From Siphonodentalium dalli (Eukaryota; Mollusca; Scaphopoda; Gadilida; Siphonodentaliidae), in contig CP136066.1 of the NCBI GenBank assembly GCA_032622095.1, positions 49,386,911 through 49,450,910 of the forward strand: 64,000 nt of DNA. Direction: 5' to 3'. A program made the position numbers and the translations under genes. Each line of letters opens with the position of its first letter. Position 1 is the first letter of the stretch. A model generated the notes under the pieces. It worked only from the letters and a program-made list of their open reading frames with translations. It did no database searches and was not told where the DNA came from. Shown here in pieces: positions 756 through 44,700 of this stretch.

Positions 756-1917
756 CAAATCTTTAATTCGAGTTATAGTGTCAGCTGATAAAGTGCCCCA
801 TACCATGACAGTGTGGGTCCTCTCATTGCTAACATGTCTGCACATAAAAATCACTACCACGTGACCTGAAAGCAGCGACGCTCTCATTTCGTGGGCGGAA
901 AGCAGCCGCAGTTAAAATGTTATTGGGTTTTTCAAACTCACGTTTTTCACATAAAGCTGTGAACTTTAAATTGATATCGTGCAATTTGGAACATGCTATT
1001 GTAATGACTTTCAAAATATATAGGTTGCAATTTACCCGGAAATTTGGTTCCGACGAATGGGTCTGGCCCATATAGACCAATAGACTAATATGCGTTTGTG
1101 GCTATAAAATGTGAAAGAGGAGAACAAAATTGTGTATTCACCTATCACAGACACATACTATATACAGTAATGTTCTAAGTAATCGACTTCTTAACCACAG
1201 CAGAATTATGGGTAACTTTTCAGGATTTAGTCGGAAATATGGCTTGTTGCCATTCATCGGAAAGCTCTCAGAGCTTTCTGATGAATGGCAACAAGCCATA
1301 TTTCCGAATAAATCCTGAAACGTTACCCATTATTCTGCTGTGGTTAAGAAGTCGATCACTTAGATAATTAATGTAGTTAGAGTATTATTGGAGGGCGGCA
1401 TAGCGCACATAAGTGCCATTATCTCATAATCGATATGCGGACACCTAAGTGATGACACTCATTACAACAAGAATATTATTAGTCTATTGTGCACGCTTAT
1501 ATTGTTTAGCAATCGAAGCACAACGGTGGGTAAATGCGTTCATTACACGCTTGTTACTAGAAGTACCGAGTTTACAAATCCGTATGACGACACATGACGT
1601 ACATGGCTTTCGCCTCAGCCATGAAACCGGAACTCTAAACTAAAAGCACCATCACACAAGATAAAACAAGCCCTACATGTTCATACATACACCTTGTAAG
1701 ACTGTATTGTTTAATATAATGCATGGAATATAGGATGGGTGACGTGTAATAAACACAAAACGACACGTGTGACAATGGGCTAGTTGATACGGCACTTTGC
1801 CATCGTGGACGGACATGTAACTCTGGGTTGCGCCTCTCGTTCTATCTTTCCGCGCTTGCACTCGTGTCATATCAACAAACCCGTTAACACACTCGTGTTT
1901 TTCTGTGTATATATATA
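735..1917. repeat. Dispersed long repeat, right block, copy 1
   Basis: This block matches 13672-14657, starting near 'atatctcaaatctttaattc' and ending in the TA-rich 'ctgtgtatatata' stretch. Here it joins directly to the left block, whereas in copy 2 about 2.9 kb separates the two. Copy 1 also carries a foldback insertion (1175-1363) that is absent from the matching place near 14095. The family is not recognised. Confidence 0.85.
1175..1363. mobile_element. 189-bp foldback (hairpin) element
   Basis: The two halves are near-perfect inverted copies, with arms of about 94 nt meeting at position 1269 with almost no loop ('aaagctctcagagcttt'). The outer ends are 'ctaagtaatcgacttc' and its complement. 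The related repeat near 14095 lacks this segment, so it is a real insertion in copy 1. It is a MITE-like foldback with no coding capacity. Confidence 0.85.
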
Positions 1918-1919
1918 GA

Positions 1920-2063
1920 ATATGTAGCTAGTGTCGTCGCTTAAACTGTTTATGTCCGTGAGGGGGATTTGAGCATTTATTGGGCGAGGTTCTGCCGAGT
2001 CCAATAGATGACAATTCCCCCGAGCGGACATAAACAGTTGTAGCGACAACATTAGCTACATAT
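1920..2063. mobile_element. MITE with ~45-bp terminal inverted repeats
   Basis: The ends are 'atatgtagcta' and its complement 'tagctacatat'. Inverted similarity runs inward for about 45 bp and includes 'actgtttatgtccg' on both arms, leaving about 50 bp of unique centre. It sits exactly where similarity between copies 1 and 2 of the flanking repeat ends. It has no coding capacity and the superfamily is not assigned. Confidence 0.75.
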
Positions 2064-2184
2064 GTTATTTATCCATCGCACACAACTTGCATTTTCCTAA
2101 GTTGTACATTCGTTACTTCGATGACGCCCTTACATTTATTAGGTCGAGCAAACTAATTAGCATTCATGACGTGGAAAAACCGAA

Positions 2185-2405
2185 GTGCAGCTTAGAGCGA
2201 AATAGTTCGTTTGGTTTTTTAAATAGTTTTTCTAAGCTGGCCTTTAGCTAATGGTTTATATATGTTTTAGAGCGGAAACACACATCCGATTACGAATTTT
2301 GTATCAATTTCGGTGAATTATGGACGATAAAAACGTCCCAAAATCACAATGAGGTCATTCAGGTCGGTTGACGTCCTTAGTTAGCTGTGCAATTTGCATA
2401 TACAT
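2185..2405. repeat. Dispersed repeat block X, copy 1
   Basis: This block matches 9625-9840 in the same orientation. Shared words include 'gagcgaaatagttcgttt', 'gatggtttata' and 'gacgataaaaacgtcccaaa'. It follows the left and right blocks here but precedes them near 9.6 kb, as expected if the family was once tandemly arranged. Confidence 0.75.
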
Positions 2406-3480
2406 TTACGTCACGAAAGTAGTACTAACCCAATAACGAACCAAAGCCGGACGCTTTGGGTCGCATATAGACTATATCTGATTTTGTGACGTCTACTCCG
2501 GCACTCTACTGGATCAAATCATAATCAGCTAAAATCACCACAACTCAACACGATCTACGTGTATCTCAAAGCTTTATTTTCCAACTATGCACAACAGTTG
2601 ACCAATACTGCATGGTTTTGTAGAGACTATACCGTGCGAAAGGAAATAAGATAATATTTAATATGGATTTGATTGTTATCATAAGTCTGCATACTTACAT
2701 GCATCTGATAATCCATATATATCCTATTTTCTGGAATAGAATGAAAACCCACATTTATGAACAAAGCAGAAGATAATTATATTCAGTTCCACGCGAATTC
2801 GGTCAATGGTGAAAGTTACACGATGACGTTGTTTGTCGACTATCGTTGAAATTGACATGTTATGAATGAAATGAACATCCTGAGTATCTGAAGCGGAGAG
2901 CTCCCCCATTACGCCTAGTAATATAATGGTCAGTTTCAGTTCCATACACTCTCGACAACATATATAACTATTTATGATTACCACACCAAACATAAGCCTT
3001 ATGCATGTGAATCATATTTGGTGGGAATCTATAAAGTGATTTTGACAAGAATTGTTTTAAACGCTACATGCAGTGTTTGTTCAGCTTATGAACAATAGTG
3101 GTTACTGTTAACAGAGACCATAAACTGTATTGTAAAATTTTGTCACAAATAATCGTTAATTATACTCGTTATCGCTTATATAAGTGGAACACAACAATAC
3201 AAGCAATCAATCTGGGACATTTGACTTTCGGTGCATAGCCATAGGAACAGTCCAGTACTCTGTATCACAATATGGTATCATCCGAATGGTCTGTTCTAAA
3301 AATAGACACATAAAAGGTCCCGACTTAATATTCAAAATAAAATCAATATTAATTGATAGCTCTTCCGGACAGGGGTCTTCAGTTCATATCTATTATTTTA
3401 TACCCACGCACCTATTTAAAAAAAATTATTTAAAGAGATAATCCATCTTTAACCCTTTCTTAACTGGAGCTTTCTGAAAT
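2406..3480. other. Gene-free stretch
   Basis: I see no coding exon, RNA gene or clear repeat here. The open frames are shorter than about 90 codons and match nothing I recognise. Confidence 0.5.
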
Positions 3481-3600
3481 TTTGCAAACCCTGTGCCAGT
3501 GCATTCTCTTATATAGGCGAGTCGCCAATATGGCGCCTCGCATAGTAATATAAAAGAGAATGTATTGGCCAAGTCCTTCCCAGGAAAAAGGAGCAATTAC
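3452..3600. mobile_element. Decayed copy of the TTAA hairpin MITE
   Basis: The diverged hairpin 'gcattctcttatata...' with its complement spans about 3499-3570. It matches the cores of the elements at 8217, 16818 and 25814. A TTAACCCTTT-like end lies near 3452, but the other terminus is not recognisable, so this copy is truncated or old. Confidence 0.6.
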
Positions 3601-4569
3601 CCCAACACCGATAATTACTCGCAATATTTTATTCGCGGGTGTCAAAATTTTCACTTGCCCACTTGTCAAAATGTTTATGGTCACTGTAATAGTTGATTAA
3701 ATATTGAAATTTTCGAAGGTATATTTATAACCTTTCCCATCTCAGTTAAATTATGGACATCTGAAAAGTTTAACTGGACATACATGTATGTCTATCCCAC
3801 AATCCCACAGGTATTATTATTTTTTGGCCTAATACGCTTGAGGATTATCAGCATTGGTCATGTGTTCAATTATTTGAACAGTTACTACTATGATGCTAAT
3901 AAGACATTTATCTTTCATGATAAGTTTGCAGTGGTACATGTAACTTAAAATGGTTGAGTTTTAACATGTACGGTTCCATGGTAACTGCGACGAACAGTGC
4001 CTTGTCACTGGGGTCAGTGTCCACTGAGCCACTGACCATGGACATGAGAAGATAAATTTACTTTCAGAAAAGTTCTCCTTGTGCGAAACAAAATGAGAAA
4101 TATGATATTGTACTGACTCTCACTGATCGTTGGCTGACTAAACAATAAAATAATTGAAAAACAAACCACTTGGGTTTTAACATAACCACAAATCATGTAA
4201 ATATTTCGCATTCAGTAAGTTAATACATTTTATATCTCAGCTTACACATGGATATGCATGGTTAACTGATAGGCCTACATGGGGAAACCGAAGAAATGCA
4301 TGGTTAACTGATCATGATGGAAGGCCAGCTCACATGATAGTTGTTTAGGTCTAATGTATAGTGTTTTCACGATGGAGTTGTGTTTAAATTTGTTTTGTAT
4401 TTATAACAGGAAGAGGTAAAAGTGTGCAACAGTAATGTTCGGCAAAAAATTATCGCTGACGAAGAAATAAAATTAGGATTGAGGTATTGAACATGGATTT
4501 TGGTCAGTCGAAACATGCATATTTTTTTGGCCTTTTTATATGTACTGGTGCATGCAGTATATTTACATG

Positions 4570-4947
4570 TACCCTGCTGGACAAAACAAGTGTCCACTTA
4601 ACCACGGTGCGGTTAGCGTCGCTACCGCGGCCGAAATGCAACAACACTGCGGCTCCACCGGCTAACTACAGTTGGGCCGCAGTATACTTGCCATTCGACC
4701 ATGGTGTAGTTGCTGCGGTGTACGTTCATTAAACTGAAAAAGATGATACAAACCAGAAATCTAACCACGGTGCACATGCCATTCGGCCGCGTTGTAGTTG
4801 CCTTTCGGCCATTGTGTACTTGCCGTTTGGCCGCAGTGTACTTGCTTTCGGCCGCAGTGCTCAACCGCAGTTACAAACGCTGAGACCGCGGCCGAACGGC
4901 AAATACACCGCGGTGCCAAATGGACACTTGTTTTGTCGAGCGGGGTA
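4570..4947. mobile_element. TIR MITE with 'CC(C/T)GCTGGACAAAACA' ends, copy 1
   Basis: The left end 'accctgctggacaaaaca' and the right end 'ttttgtcgagcggggta' are imperfect inverted copies extending through 'agtgtccactt'. TA flanks both ends, suggesting a TA target duplication as in Tc1/mariner elements. The interior is CpG-rich for this genome and made of degenerate words such as 'ttcggccgcagtgtacttgc' in both orientations. A second copy is at 36964-37215. Short frames in it are by-products. Confidence 0.8.
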
Positions 4948-16342: not shown

Positions 16343-16531
16343 AATATTCATATGACAGTTAACGACTTTTAGAATATGATCTGCCTCCACCTTTTTTTCT
16401 GACCTGTTGATTTGCAAATTGCAATGTGACAAAGAAGTTCAAATAGAGAAGTTCCATAATTGTCACTCATATCATTTTAAACTGGAATATTAGACGAAGT
16501 AATCACAACACAGCAGAATATGTAATTGTCC

Positions 16532-16747
16532 ATTAGCTTACCATTAGCTTACCATTAGCTTACCATTAGCTTACCATTAGCTTACCATTAGCTTACCATT
16601 AGCTTACCATTATACACAATACAAACGTCCATTAGCTTACCATTATACACAATTCCATTAGCTTACCATTAGCTTACCATTAGCTTACCATTAGCTTACC
16701 ATTAGCTTACCATTAGCTTACCATTAGCTTACCATTAGCTTACCATT
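16532..16747. repeat. 11-bp minisatellite (ccattagctta)n
   Basis: Uninterrupted runs of the 11-mer 'ccattagctta' occur in two main blocks. They are separated near 16613-16650 by 'tatacacaatacaaacg' and 'tatacacaatt' spacers, so the spacer has been duplicated along with the units. The array is intronic. Confidence 0.95.
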
Positions 16748-16817
16748 ATACACAATACAAACGAACACAATGACGCGAATTTGTCAAATTGCTCACAAGG
16801 AAGCAATCAACCATGAG

Positions 16818-34425: not shown

Positions 34426-34769
34426 TGGTAGCCTGAAGTAGAAAATATGACGCCTTTTCACTAATATCTTCCAAATCAGTTTCTGCTGTTTGGAGCTGAT
34501 TGAGAATTGTGACATTATTTTTTACATGTATTATTGGGGTCCGTGAAGTTAGCGCAACATTCAACATTCGTGTGAAGTTGGCACAACATTCAATATTCAA
34601 CATTCGTTCAACATTCGATGTTTCTTATACATAAGTTTTTTTTTAACGTGAATGGATTAAGTGGGTCGTATATATAGCAACCCTATCAAAATTAGAGTAT
34701 TCGATACTTCGATGCTCATTTTTGAGGAATTTTAATACCGGTAGAGAGAGATAGGGGCACATCATACAC

Positions 34770-35310
34770 TACTGCGCGCACACCCATTAAATGCCCATTA
34801 AAGGCCCATTAATGATATACCATTACAAATCCATTAAAAAACCCATGATTTTCCCGTTAAAAACCCATTAAAATACCCCCTTAATATGTAACCTTTCACA
34901 GCCATTAAATTGCCATTATTATAAGAAAGTTAACGGCCATTAAAGCTAAATTATTTTAATGGGTATGTGTATGGCCATTAAATTAACTGGGGTAATGGGC
35001 ATTAAATGAAGGCGGGAACTAAAGGCCATTAAAAAATTAATGGCAACATTCTGTGTTTAATTGCCATTAAAACCCCTTTAAAATCCAATGAAAGATTACA
35101 TATTAAGGCCCATTAAATATAATGGGCATTAAAATGGGTCATTATAATGGGCATTAATTTTGGGAGGTCAATTTTGATGCCCATTAAATTTATGGGGGCA
35201 GGGTGCCCACAAAATTGATGGCCATTAAATACAGCCTATATTTGATGGTTGGTTCATGGGGCATAATAAGGCCCATTAAATATGATGGGCATGAAAAACT
35301 GGTCATAAGC
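34770..35310. repeat. Degenerate CCATTAA / TTAATGG tract, left
   Basis: The 7-10-bp words CCCATTAAA, GGCCATTAAA and TTAATGGGC recur every 10-25 bp for over 500 bp in both orientations. No fixed period exists. Its outer edge 'cactactg...ccattaaa' is mirrored at the outer edge of the right tract near 42510. Confidence 0.85.
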
Positions 35311-36245
35311 AGAATGAGGTCTCCAGAAGGTGAGTTTGGCGACGCTGGTCCGCTTCACTGAAATGACTAGACACTTTATCTCCAAACTTGGGTATGATAC
35401 CCGGAATTAGGTGTTTATAGCCAGAATATGGCCCGGGACCTTGAATGTCCCTTTAAAGTGGTACTGTGTGTATATTTATGGACTTCCCGATTCCTCATTT
35501 CTCTGTACAATATAGTTCAAGATGATCTATTTTTAAATGGGGCATCACCTGTGTTGAAATTAATTACAATTGGATAGAAATAATAATAAAACATATATAA
35601 GGCCATTACAAATTCAAGTCTGGGTTCACAAGCAATTATGTCTAAATGTTTTGATAAGGGAGGGAGGGAGTCTTTTTATATTTATTATTTATTTAAAAAA
35701 TTTCAAAACATACTCAAAATCCAATATTAAATCTTTTTTCATGATTCCAGGTTCATGTAATACAACTTGTATCTGTGTAATCACATGTATAGCTCAATAC
35801 ATGGGAATATTCTGACACCTCTGTTGCCCAATTCCAAAAGCATGGCTCTAAATGGATATTGAGGAAAGGCATAGCATGAGTTTTGTCTGGTTCTATTCAT
35901 GATAGTGTGAGGGATATGGTTTATAAAGTCAGAAGCACTCAATGTCTCCCACCAAATATCATAACTGTACAATGTAACCACACATACATGTATAGAGAAA
36001 CACACACCACTCAAATTACAAAAAACTTCTGACAATTATATTAGGAATTCTGAGAAATCTGATTCAAATGTAGCAGTGCCATAAATTGCTCTACATGTAT
36101 TTATTTACTGCAATGCCCATGGATATCCACTATCAGGAACAATTCTCAGTGACACTGATGTAATTTTTCTAGTGTTCCACAAGAATCCTATATACCGGTT
36201 TATATCATTATACTTTTATACTGATGGCTGCTGATGTGAGAACAT
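35311..36245. other. Interior of the composite element, no gene
   Basis: No domain, exon or repeat is recognised. The open frames are short and unremarkable. Confidence 0.4.
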
Positions 36246-37273
36246 ACCTTCTCAAAATTAACTTTAAATAAGTGTCCCTCTCAAACGTTGGAACCGTGTT
36301 GAGAATTGACCATCGACGCGATTCTCGTGTTAACGGAACGCGATCGTAACGTTACTCCAATGCAGTTGTGATTTTCCTCAATGCGGTCGAGGTAACCGTC
36401 AATGCAACATAGCGCGGTGGGCATGACTGTAAACGCAACAAACGCGGTTGAGATAACCGTCAACGAAACGGAACATTGCCAACATAATACAATGTTATTT
36501 TGGCATGGTGGGAGGTATGGATAAAATGATTGATTGGTGTTAAATGTTTTACATTTTCATTAGAATTTTTCTGGAAAAAGCTAATAAATAAATGTAGATC
36601 GCATTGATCGTGCTGCACGAATTAATAGAGATGCAATTGAGATTTCTAACAACCAAAACACTTTTGAGTTCACGTCGCGTAGTTATGTGATTTTCTGTTT
36701 TCAGAGAGTGGGAAAATGACACTAAATTAGTCATATGTGATCATAAATTATATTTAAAACAAAAAATTTAATGGTTAAAAAACTACTTACATGACTCATC
36801 GTCTGTACATGTATATTTTTCGGCGCGGTGATTGTAATCTTCGCGTGTTGCGTTGATCCTTGACGCAACGCATTTAACATAAACGCGGTCTGTGTTAAAC
36901 TTCAACGCGGTCGTAACGTACCAACACTGCGTTATCAACGCAACGACCGCATTGTGTTGAAGGTACCCCGCTGGACAAAACAAGTGTCCACTTAACCGCG
37001 GTGCGGTTTGCGTTGCCACCGTGGCCGAACTGCAACTACACCGCGGCTCCACCAGCTGACTGCAGTTCGGCCGTGTACTTGCCGTTCGGCCGTGGTGTAC
37101 TTGCCATTCGGCCGCGGTGTACTTGCCGTTCGACCGTGGTTACACACAATGACACCGCGGCCGAACGGAAAGTACACCGCTGTGTCAGTGGACACTTGTT
37201 TTGTCCAGCGGGGTACAACCGCGTTGTTAACTCCTGAGAACCGCGTTAAAAGGGACACTTATTTTGAGAAGGT
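36246..37273. mobile_element. Outer TIR element with 'ACCTTCTCAAAAT' ends
   Basis: The left end ACCTTCTCAAAAT is the inverse of ATTTTGAGAAGGT at the right, and 'aagtgtccct' lies just inside both. The interior on both sides is full of degenerate 'aacgcggt' and 'caacgcaac' words. Another TIR element sits inside it (36964-37215). A small left-arm insert (about 11 bp after CAAAAT) distinguishes the arms. Confidence 0.7.
36964..37215. mobile_element. TIR MITE with 'CCCCGCTGGACAAAACA' ends, copy 2 (nested)
   Basis: The ends CCCCGCTGGACAAAACAAG and CTTGTTTTGTCCAGCGGGG are perfect inverse copies flanked by TA. It is shorter than the relative at 4570-4947. The interior has 22-bp tandem units 'gtacttgccgttcggccgtg' and variants, and inverse units in the other half. 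It is non-coding. Confidence 0.85.
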
Positions 37274-37904
37274 CTGTGCATGTGCTGTCAAAGTGACAGT
37301 TCTGATAGATTGGTTGAATTCAATTTCAATGATTGGGAGGAACGTACATGTACTTCAAAGATTGACAAGAAGAAAGTATTTGTGAATAACTTCATTTTTA
37401 TTTTTCTATTAGATCACATATTTTGGCACCAGGAAACACTTTTTGCCCATTGAAACTACTCGAGTTTCCAATATAGCATTCGGTTTAATGTATTTCAAAT
37501 CGTTTGGAATTTTCCGGATTTCGCCAAAATCATCAGATTTATTGCATTGCATTGTCGCAAATAGTTCACCAACCAACATATGTTCCTTCGGTTAATCCTC
37601 CATATACACTCAACGGTATAACTGTGATCCCTGACGTAATGCACATCGAAAACGAACTCATTTTTTCCAATTTATTTGTCCAAAATTGAAAAAATGGACA
37701 GACGATAAAATATCAGACCACGTGCTTTTTACCGGAAGTAAATATAACCGGTGTTCTTAAACATGTGACCGGTGAACCAAAAATAAGTCCCTATCACTAG
37801 CGTATTGAGGGAGGATTTTTTTTTTTTTTGGAGATTGCGCTAAATAGTTTTGCTGCAGCCATGAAGCGGACTTTTAGTGATGCGGGCGTTAATTATACAC
37901 CCTT

Positions 37905-39035
37905 TAAAAAGAGGGTTAAACTGTTTTGCACCTATCCGTCCGTACATGTGTCTGTGTGTGCGGCCGTACGTACGACCGTCCGATGTTTGTTCATGTCATA
38001 ACTTGAACAGTAGTGCTCCGATCTCAATGAAATTAGGTATGGATGTTCACTACAATGAGGACATTAAATAGAGGGTTCCATCGTTTTGTTCCGATTTTCC
38101 ATTCTAGAGTTATTCATCTTTCTTTATCTGGAAATGTTGGCTTTTGCATGGTATGCCTGGTGTCAGTTCATGTTGTAACTTCAACAGTTTTGATGGGATC
38201 TCAATGAAATTTGGTATGGATGTTCACTACAATGAGGACATTAAATAGAGGGTTCCGTCGTTTTGTTCCGATTTTCCATTCTAGAGTTATTCATCCTTCT
38301 TTATCTGGAAATGTTGGCTTTTGCATGGTATGCCTGGTGTCAGTTCATGTTGTAACTTCAACAGTTTTGATGGGATCTCAATGAAATTTGGTATGGATGT
38401 TCACAACTATGAGGACATTAAATAGAGGGTTTCATTGTTTTGTTCGGAGTTTCCATTCTAGAGTTATTCATTTTTGATTATCTGGAAATGTTGGATTTTT
38501 GGTCCGTCTGGTGTCTGTGCTTGTCATAACTTGAACAGTAGTGATCGGATCTCAATGAAATTTTGTATGGTTGTTCACTACTGTGAGGGCACATGCAATA
38601 GAGGGGTCCATAAATTTTTTTCGGATTTTACATTCTAGAGTTATTCATCTTTGTTTATCAGGAAATGATGGCTGTTTGGTATGTATGCATGGTGTCAGTT
38701 CATGTTGTAACTTCAACAGTTTTGATGGGATCTCAATGAAATTTGGAATGGATGTTCACTACTATGAAGACATTAAAAAGAATCTTCCATCGTTTTGTTC
38801 GGATTTTCAATTCTAGAGTTATACATCTTCGATTATCTGGAAATGTTGGATTTTTGGTCCGTCTGGTGTCTGTTCGTGTCATAAATTGAACAGTAATGCT
38901 CGGATCACAATTAAATTTGGTATGGATGTTCACCATTATGAGGACATTTAATGGCACATTCAACTATTTGTCTTGTTTTGTTTTTTTGTTCTATAGTTAT
39001 TCATCTTTGTTTATATGAAAATGCTGATTATTGGG
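37905..39035. repeat. 177-bp tandem satellite, ~6 copies
   Basis: Units share 'atctcaatgaaatttggtat', 'gatgttcacta', 'gaggacattaaatagagggt' and 'attctagagttattcatctt'. The 'aacttgaacag/aacttcaacag' word recurs at about 38010, 38187, 38364, 38539, 38720 and 38895, giving periods of 175-181 bp. Two subfamilies alternate imperfectly (tcataacttgaacag versus tgtaacttcaacag). Confidence 0.9.
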
Positions 39036-39889
39036 TCCATCTGTCTTAGTATAGCAGTCATATTTTATAGATATACCCACACTAGGCGGTATGTAACAAG
39101 GGAGTATGTACCGGACGACAGTCCATCTCTTGTTTTTAATGGCCTAACTTTAAAAGATTATGCAATATATTAATTAAAAAATAATATAATATAATACTAC
39201 TTGTATTGTTAATAAACAAATAAAAAATAGAAGGTCTCTTCTCACTAGGGGCCAGTGAAACTTCGAGTACATGTATTCTATATCGTAGTGAAGCTTCCGA
39301 TTCTTATGGATTAAAAATTTTGAATGGTGGGGTCAACCTGACAATCAAACAAATGACCAATGGGCTCACTTCAGTAAAATACACAATCAGAAGAAGATAC
39401 GTGAGGCCAAAATAAAAATAAAACATCCATGTTTCCGGTTTGTCTTGCTTCTCAATTGCATACATGGCTTTTTCATTGATTTACCTCCTTGATTTAACTT
39501 CTTGTTTATATTTTCCCCACCATGGAAGAGCCCTGCGTGGTAGTACTTGTATAGTTGGTTAGGCATGGACTAGCATAATGAGAAAGAATAGGGCTTCAGT
39601 AACCACTGCTTGAGATAAAAGTCTCTCTTAAAGTGGAGCAGAGAAATACATAAATGATCATCATTGTCTGAGTTTGTGCCTCTGTTGCGTCATGACGTGA
39701 GCTTCTGCTTAAAGTGACGTGAAACACCAATTAAGAAAACAAACCACCATTCGAGAAATTCAAATGGCTGATTCAGTGGAGCATAGACATAAATGATTGC
39801 CATTGCCTGATTGTGTAGGTCATGTTATGAGCTTCCACTTAAAGTGACGTTAACTACATGTAGCTGACTATATAAGTACTTTCCTTGGT
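39036..39889. other. Interior of the composite element, no gene
   Basis: It holds a small repeat of 'cttaaagtgacgt' context (about 39710 and 39838) and no coding exon. Confidence 0.4.
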
Positions 39890-40113
39890 TGAAACCATGG
39901 ATATGGTCAATTCATGGCCATCACCTATGCAGCCATTGAAATAATTTCCTAGTGATGGGCATTAGTTCGCAATAATAATTTAATGGGCATTAAATGTGGT
40001 CATTTGATGGACATTACCTGGGCAGCCATTGAAATCATGGCCATTAATATTACAACAGTTGTGAGTGATGGGCATTAATTTGCAATAATAATGTAATGGG
40101 CATTAAATTGGTT
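39890..40113. repeat. CCATTAA tract, right, first part (split by LINE)
   Basis: It has TTAATGGGCATTAA-type words like those at 34770-35310. The LINE at 40114-42161 interrupts it and it resumes at 42162. Confidence 0.8.
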
Positions 40114-42161
40114 TTGTTTAAACATATTTTATTGTATATCAATTATATACATGGGGATTGGGACACAAGTTTTGTCAACTTAGTGACGCCCCTCTCCCGC
40201 ACAAAAGGTATAACATAACATTTAAACAAGATGGCAGGATGAAATTGTGAATATTTAAGCAGGGAAACAGATGTGAATATTTGTACAGAGTGTGCTATGA
40301 GTGGAGTTTTATTGTGTCCAGTTCTACCCTCACGTTGTCATAAGTTGTGTCTAAAAAGGCCGGGCAATTAAATTTTTAATTGTTTTCAATGACAGGTTGA
40401 CATAACAGAGAAAAATATATGATCGAAGTTACCCAAAACGTTTAGTTGCATTAATGTAGGACTGTGTAATATGAAATAGCAATATATTTCTTCTGTGGTC
40501 ATTTTCAGAGATTCCACAGAGAAGATGCTTAATATTTTCTATATGAAAGTTATTTGTTTCAAGTTTGTGGTAAAATATTCTTCTCTGATTGGTGAACAAT
40601 GGACAGTGGAAGAAGAAATGACTAGCATCCTCCTTCGGAAAACCACATTGACAATTAGGACTATCAGCTATGTGATTATTTTGCATGTCACTCTTTAAGT
40701 CGCTACAATAGTTTCGGAGTTTACAATGGTTGACACTAACATTCCGATGACCTGTTCTATAAAGTGGATAGGGTTTTGGAGCAGGGGCGATTATGTTTAG
40801 GTGAGTTTTAAAATCGGATATATTTTCAGAATCTATGACAAACGAAGGGAGCTTATTCCACTCATGAGTTGTGTTTAGGAAGAATGATTTCCTATAATGT
40901 GCTGTTGTCCAGCGGTACGAGTAGAAAAAACGCGGTTGTCTAAAGTTGTACCGGTTGTTTGATACATGTGCCGCCCGGGCTGGTAGAAGAAGGGTGAGAT
41001 ATTCTGGAGTTTCTTCGTTAGTTATTTTAAAAAGTGTTTGTAGGTGGTGTTTCTCCCTGCGCTCCCTAAGGTTGGACCACCCCACTTCGAGTAAAACATT
41101 TGTATTGGAGACAGAGCGGGTTAACCCGGTCACTATTCTGGCGGCGTCCACGTGTATACGTTCAAGTTTGTCCATCCAGTATTGTGGTGCACAGTCCCAA
41201 ACTACATCTGCATAATCCATTATTGGCTGAACGTAAGTTTTGTAAATTTTTTCTAACGTGTTTGCACTTAAGCTGTATTTGAATCTTCTTAGTTGTGAGA
41301 TGCGGGACGAAACTCTCTTAATTATATTATTAATGTGATCGTTCCAGTCTAAATTTGATTGAATTTCAACACCAAGGTGTGTATGTGACGTTTCGAAAGA
41401 GATGTTTTGGTCTTGGAATACAAGTGTGGGGTTCGTTTGTTTGCCCGATAACGAGAAAGATATTGCTTTGGTTTTCGATGGATTGAAATTTACCAGCCAT
41501 TTGCGCGCCCAATTTGATATCGATTCTAGGTCTTGATTTAGATCGAATTCAAGGATGGTCAGGTCGTAATGAGATGCGATAATGCATGTGTCGTCGGCGT
41601 ACATTCTAGTTGTTGAGATAAGGTTATCCGGGAGATCATTTATGTAGGATAGGAACAGAAGAGGTCCGAGTATTGACCCTTGAGGCACTCCAGCGGGGAC
41701 CAATTCGAACTCGGAGTATGTATTATTCACCAAGACTCTTTGTTGTCTGTTAAAAAGATAGTCCTCCAACCAAATGGACAGCTGACCAGAAATTCCGTAC
41801 TTGTCTAATTTATGTATCAAACCCTTATGCCAGACCATCTCGAACGCCTTTGAAATATCACAAAAAATAGCACAGGTGTGCAAGTTGTTGTCGAGGCTCT
41901 GACATAAGTTATGATACATATCCAGAAGTTGATATGTTGTATTATGTCCTTCAGTAAAGCCAGATTAGTGTCGATATAGGAGGCAGTTCTCGTCGAAGAA
42001 TACATTAATATATTTGAGTACCGTTTTTTCGAAAACTTTTCCAAGGATAGGTAGAAGTGAAATTGGGCGATAATTTAAACAGTCCGCGGGATCTCCTTTT
42101 TTGAATATAGGTATTACGTTAGCTTTCTTCCAGTTCGACGGAAATTTGCCCATATTTAGCG
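40114..42161 (-). mobile_element. 5'-truncated CR1/Jockey-like LINE with 12-bp TSD
   Basis: The 12-bp word ATTAAATTGGTT lies on both sides (40102-40113 and 42162-42173), an evident target-site duplication inside the CCATTAA tract. The element is on the minus strand, with its 3' UTR at about 40114-40428. It begins inside the reverse transcriptase domain, so endonuclease and promoter are missing, as in typical target-primed truncations. There is no poly-A; the 3' end is 'atgtttaaacaa'. The clean TSD suggests a fairly recent insertion. Confidence 0.9.
40429..42161 (-). pseudogene. LINE ORF2 reverse transcriptase, truncated and interrupted
   Basis: On the minus strand the frame opens at the truncation point with MGKFPSNWKKANVIPIFKKG and NYRPISLLP (RT fingers). 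It continues with FCDISKAF (catalytic Asp), AGVPQGSILGPLLFL, the catalytic MYADDT box and the thumb motif HLGVEI. It ends with a CQCGFPKEDASHFFFHCP cysteine-histidine motif. One in-frame TAA at 41965-41967 breaks it, where related elements usually have Gln before SGFTEGH. No frameshift is needed. The 496-codon part at 40429-41919 is uninterrupted. The missing N-terminus removes the endonuclease. Confidence 0.9.
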
Positions 42162-42520
42162 ATTAAATTGGTTAGTTGATGGCCATTACCTATGAGGCCA
42201 TCAAGATCATGGGCATTAATTTCATGACAAGTGTACTTGGCATTAAAAGTATACCAAATCATTGCCATTAAATTCAGTCAATACAAATTTTAATGGGGTT
42301 TAATGGGCATTAGAAAAATAGAATGTGTGTTTAATGGCCAATTCAATGTTTATAATGGTGAACTGGCCATTAAATCTTTAAAATTAATGGTGTTTTAATG
42401 GGTTCAGTGGAGCCCCATTAAAATTGTTGTTACAAGAATTAATGGTATAAACTAATGGTTTTGGCCAATTTAATGGTATTTTAATGGGATTTTCATGGCA
42501 TTTTAATGGAATGCATGTAC
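42162..42520. repeat. CCATTAA tract, right, second part
   Basis: This is the continuation of 39890-40113 beyond the LINE. Words such as TTTTAATGGGATTTT dominate near its right end. That end is the inverse of the left tract's outer end. Confidence 0.8.
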
Positions 42521-43799
42521 AGTAGTGATATACGTATGAGCGGATCGGGCCCATATATGCAGGGATTGTACCCTGATGGTACTTCAATTATCCATAGGGC
42601 CCACGCCTAGCATGTGTGGTTTTCGCTGGCGAATTTTGAACAGAGAGCACAATCAGCATTCGTTCAACATTCGTGTGAAGTTGGCACAACATTCAATATT
42701 CGTTCAACATTCGATTTTTCTTATATATAAGTTTTTTGGAACGTGAATGGATTAAGTGGGTCGTATATACAAATTAGATTATTCAATACTACGATGCTCA
42801 TTTTTGATGAATTTTAATTCCGGTAGAGAGATAGGGGAGAGGGGGCACATCATATACGCATGATCGGGCCCACATATGCAGGGATTGTACCCTGATTGTA
42901 CTGTAACTCTCCATAGGGCCCACGCTGGGAGTGATATATTACACATACCGGTATCCATACCACCACCCTCTCCCAACCCAACCACACACCCTCTATACTG
43001 TCGCCACTCATGTCCCTAAAATTACTTACCGGGGTAATTAATACAATAGTGAGAAAAACACTTTATTTGCTAATACCACGAAATGCCATCGCCTATACGG
43101 TACCGGTAGGTCTATAGAAAAATCGAATGTTGAACGAATGTTGAATGTTGTGCCAACTTCACACGAATGTTGAACGAATGTTAAATGTGCTCTCTGTTCA
43201 ACATTTGCCAGCGAAAACCACACATGCTAGGCGTGGGCCCCATGGATAATTAAAGTACCGCCAGGGTACAATCCCTGCATATATGATGTGCCCTCTTTCT
43301 CTACCGGAATTAAAACTCCTCAAAAATTAGCATCGAAGTATCGAATACTCTAATTTTGATATGGGTGCTGTGTATACGACACATAATCCGTTCACGTTAA
43401 AAAAAACTTACGTACAAGAAAAATTTAATGTTGAACGAATGTTGAATGTTGTGCCAACTTCACACGAATGTTGGACGAATGTTGAATGTGCTCTCTGTTC
43501 AACATTCGCCAGTGAAAACCACACATGCTAGGCATGGGCCCTATTGAGAATTAAAGTACCATCAGGGTACAATCCCCGCTCACTCTATCTCTCTATCCCG
43601 GAATTAAAATTCCTCAAAAATGAGCATCGAAGTATCGAATATTTTTGATAGGGGTCTATATATACGACCCACTTAATCCATTCACGTTAAACAAAACTTA
43701 TGTATATGAAACATTGAACGTTGAACGAATGTTGAATGTTGTGCCAACTTCACACGAATGTTGAACGAATGTTGAATGTTGAGCTAACTTCACGGACCC
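42521..43799. repeat. Right arm of composite element: three arm units, one inverted
   Basis: One forward unit (about 42655-42870) is followed by two inverse units (about 43120-43420 and 43430-43799). Each contains the 'gaagttggcacaacattca' word or its complement and 'gcatcgaagtatcgaat'. A linker word, 'gcagggattgtaccctgat' or its variants, recurs at about 42560, 42890, 43265 and 43570. The forward and inverse units form a hairpin-like centre near 43000. Confidence 0.75.
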
Positions 43800-44700
43800 G
43801 TATTTTTTATATTTTAACTGATCGTTGGGACAATGAAATAAGCATTTCTTGGGGTTCTAACTCTTCGGATCCCTCAAACATATGATTTTACAGAGCACGG
43901 CATAACATTTCACAAAGAGATCACAATTGGGTTTCTAGTCATATTTCAACAAGAAATGAGCAGAACTGTGGAATGTAAGTGAGGCAAACCATAACTAATG
44001 AATGTTCAAACTAATAGGAACAAATATTTTTACTTTGGCTCAAAATGACCACCAAAATGGAAGCCAAAATATGTAAAATTGTAGGTACTGCCCCAGTGTG
44101 CCCTGCAATCGCTGACATGTTGTGGGTGGGTAATAAAATGGGCAATTCTACATTCTATATATTGAATACTAACATGTCTGATGCACTTTGGTTAATTGGT
44201 ACTATTGTAACCAAGATATTATTAAAAAAAATGAATTTTTCTCTTACAAAAAACATTGGCAAAGAATCGCTTTTCAGTTTTATCAAGTAAAATATAAAAA
44301 TATAACTATCTTCGGTATGAACAGTATTGTTGTCTAAGGTGTTCAGTGACCAAATTACTCAAGATGGCTTCCAAAATGGCAACTAAATTGTGAAAAGTAA
44401 TTTTTCACATATATCCGGAACATAGTTCTCTGCTGTTCCGAAAAGGTAGCAATGTGTGACTCACTGTGTCATTATACATGTTACTTAAGTAGTTAAGGAC
44501 TAGTTGAAAGGAAATGGGCAGAACATTGAAACGGAAATGAGAGGGGCCATGATATGTGGCTACACTAGTATCAATCTTTATCAACTATTGTCGGGAAAAT
44601 AGTTTATCATTTCTTCATAACCACCATTGTGCATAAACTCCACCAAGATGTATAACTTTATGACATGACATCTCTATCGATTAGCATGTCATTGAGTTAT
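43800..44700. other. Gene-free stretch
   Basis: No coding exon is seen. Words like 'caaaatggaagccaaaat' and 'caagatggcttccaaaatgg' recur at 44050 and 44360 and suggest a small old duplication. Confidence 0.4.

Follow-up and report, generated by a model that had tools for sequence, protein, structure and literature searches.

A nest of three transposons at a symmetric repeat locus of Siphonodentalium dalli

The window, a 64,000-nucleotide stretch (C6:49386911-49450910) of a 2.23-Gb genome in 9 contigs, holds a symmetric repeat locus that proves to be an ordinary set of three nested transposons. The full account, a foldback element with a CACTA element inside it and a non-LTR retrotransposon inside the CACTA element, served by enzymes acting in trans, is very probably correct. 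Each layer displays ends and a target duplication, relatives are uninterrupted where the second and third layers stand, and larger relatives of the CACTA element encode a CACTA transposase. A false composite element is thereby removed, and its CCATTAA tracts are explained as CACTA subterminal repeats.

In the proposed course of events, a non-autonomous foldback DNA transposon of ~1.5 kb, with arms of ~625 and 685 bp, would have inserted with a 9-bp duplication. A non-autonomous CACTA/EnSpm element of ~5.7 kb would then have entered its left arm, duplicating ATA, and a truncated 2.05-kb non-LTR retrotransposon would have entered the right CCATTAA tract and duplicated 12 bp there. The foldback is placed as the oldest insertion because its arms are 74-88% alike to their longest-matching relatives; the CACTA insertion, being 99.5% alike to its relative L117, is placed second and recent. 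The non-LTR element is the last insertion. Both DNA elements would move by cut and paste with enzymes supplied in trans.

Layers of the locus

The features, with strand and supporting evidence, are:

34528-34536, no strand: putative 9-bp target duplication, left flank GTATTATTG (7/9 match with the right flank)
34537-34766, plus: outer foldback, left arm part 1, tip GGGTCCGTGAAGTTAGC (inverted matches, tip search, relatives)
34764-34766, no strand: ATA, left copy of the CACTA 3-bp target duplication (sequence; relatives continuous here)
34767-42527, plus: nested CACTA/EnSpm-type element, 7,761 bp including the non-LTR element, ends CACTACTG / CAGTAGTG (genome matches, paired ends)
34783-35300, plus: left subterminal CCATTAA tract of the CACTA element (word counts, relatives)
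36963-37216, no strand: 254-bp segment with perfect 30-bp inverted ends, within the CACTA element (self-comparison)
37989-38952, no strand: 177-bp tandem array of ~5.5 copies, within the CACTA element and present in L117 too (repeat comparison)
39940-40112, minus: right subterminal CCATTAA tract, piece left of the non-LTR element (self-comparison, L117)
40102-40113, no strand: ATTAAATTGGTT, left copy of the non-LTR 12-bp target duplication (L117 comparison)
40114-42161, minus: non-LTR retrotransposon insertion, 2,048 bp, apparently 5'-truncated (L117 continuous, with a single 12-bp copy)
40429-41964, minus: open frame for 511 aa; reverse transcriptase domain RVT_1 (E 3.6e-23, covering 43-194 of the 205 profile positions)
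42162-42512, minus: right subterminal CCATTAA tract, remainder (word counts, L117)
42528-42530, no strand: ATA, right copy of the CACTA 3-bp target duplication (sequence; relatives)
42531-42925, plus: outer foldback, left arm remainder, left-arm orientation kept (joined left arm is 1-625 of 1,499)
42926-43115, no strand: outer foldback, inter-arm spacer (joined-flank comparison)
43116-43799, minus: outer foldback, right arm, repeated units spaced ~300 bp (self-comparison, relatives)
43800-43808, no strand: putative 9-bp target duplication, right flank GTATTTTTT (flank comparison)

The foldback tips (34537-34571 and 43765-43799) are 97% complementary over 35 nt, and 34560-34754 pairs with pieces of 43116-43765 as inverted matches of 87-98%. 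The long inverted arms with a common tip that had been described from the letters alone are thus real, and so is the repeated unit of the right arm, where direct repeats are spaced 301 and 290 bp. Joining the flanks in silico without the CACTA element yields a 1,499-bp foldback with arms at 1-625 and 931-1499 and an additional right-arm unit that begins at 816. The 9.26-kb size of the window copy is therefore due to the CACTA insertion, the foldback without it measuring ~1.5 kb. Its own 9-bp duplication is imperfect, at 7/9, and agreement of at least 7/9 is also found in 15 of the 1,122 cross-pairs of flanks. The 9-bp flank word common to the window and L042 was dismissed as a coincidence: the left flanks align over 22 AT-rich bases only, and the right flanks score 24, against 18-25 at unrelated sites.

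The innermost layer is delimited by L117, a full CACTA relative of 5.7 kb, which matches 34767-40113 at 99.46% and 42162-42527 at 99.45%. These two matches overlap by the 12 bases ATTAAATTGGTT only, and the same bases flank the window's extra 2,048 bp at both ends. The extra sequence is a non-LTR insertion, apparently 5'-truncated, and the patch at 39940-40112 belongs to the right CCATTAA tract, which the insertion has split in two.

The CACTA element and its larger relatives

Against the expectation of an order-1 Markov model, the left tract (34783-35300) holds 14 CCATTAA where 0.39 are expected and 2 TTAATGG where 0.33 are, and the right tract (42162-42512) holds 9 TTAATGG against 0.17 and 3 CCATTAA against 0.13. 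A search with 34760-36270 gave 41 matches from 40 scored candidates (627 at first look); 38 of the 41 listed matches, the window included, start at most 7 bases from position 34767, where the CACTACTG end lies, and are 94-100% identical. The pattern of CACTACTG followed by CCATTAA is present at 108 + 113 places, compared with 8 + 4 for the control, and many of the first 100 listed places form facing pairs ~5.4-13 kb apart that combine the window's left and right end types. All 10 sampled copies of the window-type CACTA element have 3-bp duplications, which in the window is ATA. Relatives of the foldback run through the CACTA insertion point in 170 alignments from 60 fetched loci, some of them overlapping, and L048 is continuous across this point on both arms at 86%. 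A 25-kb member of the outer family is matched by the arms of the window element only, not by its tract-bearing middle. From the CACTACTG-end matches, the 3-bp duplications, the continuous relatives and the arms-only match it follows that the CCATTAA tracts belong to the inserted CACTA element and not to the foldback.

The sequence-only reading was right that mirrored CCATTAA tracts exist, and tips, arms and tracts do stand in symmetric order. It took them for one nested symmetric structure of 9.26 kb, a single giant composite foldback with the tracts as part of its arms. We regard that reading as scarcely tenable. Dozens of further sites carry the tract-bearing piece, its CACTACTG ends exact, and 3-bp duplications flank all 10 copies sampled, whereas CCATTAA and TTAATGG each number 0-4 per locus in 20 outer loci and three pieces of the 25-kb member; relatives of the arms, being continuous where the tract-bearing piece starts, refute it. 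Three insertions replace the single structure, and what stands of the foldback reading is the paired arms with the same ends, the tracts being CACTA subterminal repeats. Helitrons and Helentrons make no target duplication and have no terminal inverted repeats; they were rejected for both DNA layers, where inverted ends and target duplications are present.

The assignment of the middle layer to CACTA/EnSpm elements is based on its CACTA...TAGTG ends, on subterminal repeats in direct and inverted orientation, on a target duplication in the 2-3 bp range (found in the sampled copies and the window, absent from the one 32-kb copy read) and on the tnp2 / Transposase_21 of large relatives that share these ends. 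No Transposase_21 was seen among the open frames of the window copy. Among the listed places, CACTACTG ends are paired at a distance of 31-33 kb in six cases, and all six of these listed ~32-kb pairs enclose a 909-aa open frame with Transposase_21 (PF02992). The PF02992 matches number 78, with 12 of them in a 909-aa open frame. One ~32-kb element, read fully, carries CCATTAA tracts at both ends, and its 909-aa frame matches Transposase_21 (E 1e-26) and DUF4218 (6.7e-12); its flanking triplets are TGT and CAC, so there is no 3-bp duplication there. Sequence partly similar to the 254-bp segment at 36963-37216 is also present in the 32-kb CACTA element. Similarity between the window element and the 32-kb copy is confined to the two ends (69.5% across 430 bp, 73.9% across 291 bp) and to a short segment in the middle. 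As the ends are just 70-74% alike, the 32-kb subfamily may not be the mover of the window element. A Transposase_21 (tnp2) protein supplied in trans would move it, and by analogy with plant Spm/En the CCATTAA repeats would be putative binding sites for an element-encoded protein.

The foldback family, its giants and its mobiliser

The 17-bp tip, with at most one mismatch, is found 157 times forward and 166 times in reverse across the genome, compared with 1 + 2 occurrences of a reversed-pattern control. Pairing used exact tips only: out of these 323 tips, 228 are exact (33 + 91 + 104 when split by the preceding base), and 224 of the 228 were listed. Among the 224 listed tips there are 54 facing pairs no more than 40 kb apart, with sizes of ~0.3 to 25.6 kb; non-facing neighbours within the same distance form 8 pairs, of which 7 share an orientation (5 minus-minus, 2 plus-plus) and 1 points outward. 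In 500 random placements of the tips, with lengths rounded for three contigs, facing pairs averaged 0.24 and never exceeded 3.

The 9-base flanks of 34 elements agree at 9/9 positions in 25, 8/9 in 3, 7/9 in 3, 5/9 in 1 and 1/9 in 2; agreement is thus 7/9 or lower in 6 of the 34, with the window among those at 7/9. Cross-pairs (n=1,122) reach 9/9 in 3 cases and 7/9 in 12. Two of the three perfect cross-pairs arise because L070 and the 20-kb element on C7 represent one insertion in duplicated DNA, for which reason 33 of the 34 sampled elements are taken as independent. The sample leaves out L039 and L040, which have common flanks, two right tips each and a 9/9 match after a one-base shift, and L041, whose flanks match 7/8. 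Tip pairs and flanks together therefore identify the outer family as foldback-armed transposons that move by cut and paste and duplicate 9 bp of the target.

Like foldbacks, its members have long inverted arms of tandem repeats that vary in length, and genomic copies have both arms with the same ends. The sequence-only reading had named two outcomes that would speak against it, namely arms with no partner at a similar distance and no genomic copy with both arms and the same ends; neither was seen, given the 54 facing pairs and the perfect 9-bp duplications in 25 of 34 elements. Long TIRs and a target duplication in the 8-11 bp range, mostly 9, are features of Mutator-like elements. Arm length would shift through the gain or loss of tandem units. 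Among foldbacks the outer family stands out as an unusual variant of large size.

Seventeen of the 54 facing pairs measure 15.6-25.6 kb; one such giant was read through and flanks were read in 11. The flanks AAAATACTT of the former, a 25.1-kb member on C2, match perfectly, and its arms consist of ~450-bp units with ~120-bp sub-repeats. Arm repeats occupy 5.9 kb on its left and ~6.4 kb across 8.4 kb on its right, where 2 kb of other sequence lies between them, and the largest frame of its 11-kb middle is at most 182 aa. Perfect 9-bp duplications flank 9 of the 11 sampled giants. Core probes taken from either side of the C2 middle are found inside 13 and 11 of the 17 giant pairs, the source counted in both, with identity mostly of 97-99% (93-94% in two) and often across part of the probe; since each search scored just 40 candidates, giants without a match prove nothing. 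In the 11 giants with both probes the relative order and strand agree in every case, at different sites. The shared cores and perfect duplications favour transposition of giants as whole units. The insertion present in two duplicated places (L070 and C7:144682547) spans 9.0 kb in one and 20 kb in the other with its flanks in common, so element length changes in place too.

We tentatively suggest that the family includes true giants of 16-26 kb, with no detected transposase and with ~6 kb of satellite-like repeats per arm (in the one read), which may transpose whole and thus carry and seed satellite DNA; we hold this as a possibility rather than as the expected outcome. If it is true and the enzyme is Mutator-like, the giants would lie well past 7 kb, the upper size given in a review for the Pack-MULEs of one 2004 study (PMC6431247), and the multiplication of arm units may provide additional docking sites, making jumps of such length possible. 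Among the listed titles on foldback transposable elements in molluscs we found none describing such giants, an observation on titles that makes no claim of absence from print. Two families are exposed by the dissection of the locus: foldbacks with satellite-like arrays as arms, which apparently moved when 16-26 kb long, and CACTA elements of ~32 kb, whose 909-aa transposase frame is open in 12 instances. The former makes testable both the spread of satellite arrays by transposons and the idea that multiplied binding sites aid very long jumps.

A genome scan for PF10551, which misses weak copies, found no match within the 54 tip pairs among the 148 compared (of the best 150 scored, from 813 candidates), the nearest lying 51 kb from an exact tip. 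A broken Mutator-like gene was found at a tip locus (L023, continued in L120), with PF10551 at E 2.4e-9 in one frame and the broken domain ~1.5 kb from the unpaired tip C1:87879332. The arm there is a 478-bp foldback whose second tip is missing, with the gene on its far side; over the 4 kb that follow the gene no further tip or arm was seen. Either an autonomous relic or a mere neighbour may be at hand, and the place of the gene beyond an arm that lacks its second tip, with no tip or arm in the next 4 kb, makes it a lead and not an assigned transposase. At a 19.9-kb element on C1, the left flank encodes the portion of a related Mutator-like gene that precedes the insertion and the right flank the portion that follows; this gene is therefore an insertion target, not cargo. 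Frames of 189 and 370 aa in this pair, which was read in part, have no Pfam match.

The 25-kb member, five elements of 5-9 kb (L066-L070) and 20 loci contain reverse transcriptases, a nested ACGGAAGCCTATTAGGGCC piece and short frames, and no transposase in the part of the frames scanned. A 199-aa frame in a 4.3-kb outer element (L041) was considered as the foldback transposase and rejected, as its copies lie mostly outside tip pairs: a 97-aa part of it has 105 genome matches, and of the 43 compared only that of L041 itself lies inside a listed pair; the next copies lie at distances of 12 kb and 191 kb from a tip. Together the copies make up a distinct element, with ACGGAAGCCTATTAGGGCC as its end and repeats of ~20 bp, which makes the frame nested cargo. 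It gives nothing above the cut-off in Pfam or NCBIfam and no hit in a PDB sequence search.

The outer family is probably served by a Mutator-like transposase in trans. We file it there because of its 9-bp duplication and long TIRs, by the reasoning used for Tetris (PMC4079207). An enzyme from outside this group (of the P superfamily as in Galileo, Merlin-like or new), with duplication length as the only Mutator-like trait, is rather unlikely: it would agree with the lack of a PF10551 domain inside tip pairs among the 148 matches and with the span of published foldbacks over more than one superfamily (PMC4079207, PMC3169594), but the 9-bp duplications of 25 of 34 elements fall within the 8-11 bp range stated for Mutator-like elements (PMC6446971), and Galileo, the P-type example, is described as bounded by 7-bp sequences (PMC3573991). 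More doubtful still is the view that the 16-26 kb giants grew in place from short foldbacks by tandem amplification, nested insertions and gene conversion. The 9.0- and 20-kb states of one insertion speak for it, as does the fact that a single giant was read through; core probes that recur in 13 and 11 of 17 giants, with order and strand agreeing in 11 of 11 at different sites, and perfect duplications in 9 of 11 sampled giants speak against it.

Comparison with known systems

Foldbacks with tandem-repeat arms are already known, and the longest foldback arms that we found quoted are the ~1.26 kb of Galileo in D. mojavensis (PMC3573991). The outer family shares with Tetris of Drosophila virilis, as described in PMC4079207, TIRs with tandem repeats of variable number (~220 bp in Tetris), duplications of 8-10 bp, a lack of coding capacity and of any autonomous copy found, and repeats that grow into satellite-like arrays. 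The likeness is one of structure and differs in scale: the units here are of ~450 bp with ~120-bp sub-repeats and fill ~6 kb per side in the giant read, and there are 54 facing tip pairs, whereas three structurally complete copies are given for Tetris (PMC4079207). Tm1, a Mutator/Foldback element of root-knot nematodes, likewise has composite TIRs whose length varies and which contain tandem repeats, along with mostly 9-bp duplications, but its repeats are of 13-15 bp and one 2.6-kb element encodes a Phantom-type transposase (PMC3169594), where none is assigned here. Galileo of Drosophila, from the P superfamily, also has long TIRs that change length, partly via gain and loss of tandem repeats, and differs in its 7-bp boundary sequences and P-type transposase (PMC3573991).

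The middle element, for its part, resembles the soybean CACTA/Spm element Tgmt* (20.5 kb) in its CACTA ends, its 3-bp duplication (ATA in both), its direct and inverted subterminal repeats and the tnp2-type transposase of a large member (PMC2613891). Compared with the Tgmt* of that report, the repeat word here is CCATTAA, the window copy is without a transposase and the large relatives reach ~32 kb (PMC2613891).

Genes and duplicated DNA beside outer foldback elements

Two members of the GGGTCC-tipped foldback family to which the outer element of the window belongs lie beside or within Mutator-like genes. A broken gene of this type, with the Mutator-like transposase domain PF10551 in one frame, is found in a locus fetched from outside the window and in its continuation (L023 2560-3016 and L120 3-784), where it adjoins a truncated outer foldback of 478 bp, and is possibly a relic of an autonomous relative. 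The 19.9-kb outer element on contig C1 is inserted in a Mutator-like gene, with the two parts of the gene in its flanks:

L025 989-1488, Mutator-like gene part flanking the C1 element
L026 1499-1624, Mutator-like gene part flanking the C1 element

Two duplicated outer elements adjoin a 426-aa open frame of the C2H2 zinc-finger type (L011 and L014, both 2-1279; the domain scan was of the L011 copy). Duplicated DNA also holds a single insertion present twice, at L070 and C7:144682547-144702536, where identical flanks enclose 9.0 kb in the former and 20 kb in the latter.

A separate family hosting a foldback

Elements with the end ACGGAAGCCTATTAGGGCC and repeats of ~20 bp (L041 ~793-3950 and L072-L076) form a family of their own, which carries a conserved 97-aa piece and has more than 40 near-complete matches in the genome. 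One contains a 1.28-kb outer foldback (L067 4898-6181) flanked on both sides by AATGTTTGA, and the uninterrupted sequence of this insertion site is present at L072 1241-1451.

CACTA sequences and tandem arrays

The large CACTA relative at C3:459920-491706 (L062-L065) spans ~32 kb and encodes, besides the 909-aa transposase frame, a second frame of 561 aa. It holds sequence partly similar to a short segment of the nested CACTA element (window 36963-37216) that is bounded by perfect inverted repeats of 30 bp, and the 22-bp word of a minisatellite at window 4770-4859 is similar to the same segment. Approximately 19.5 tandem copies of CCATTAGCTTA occupy window 16530-16748; the word resembles the CCATTAA subterminal repeats, yet the array is located outside the nested element. 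A long higher-order array extends from 47943 to the end of the window (64000), with 196-bp units grouped by two or three in blocks that recur every ~900-1,100 bp.
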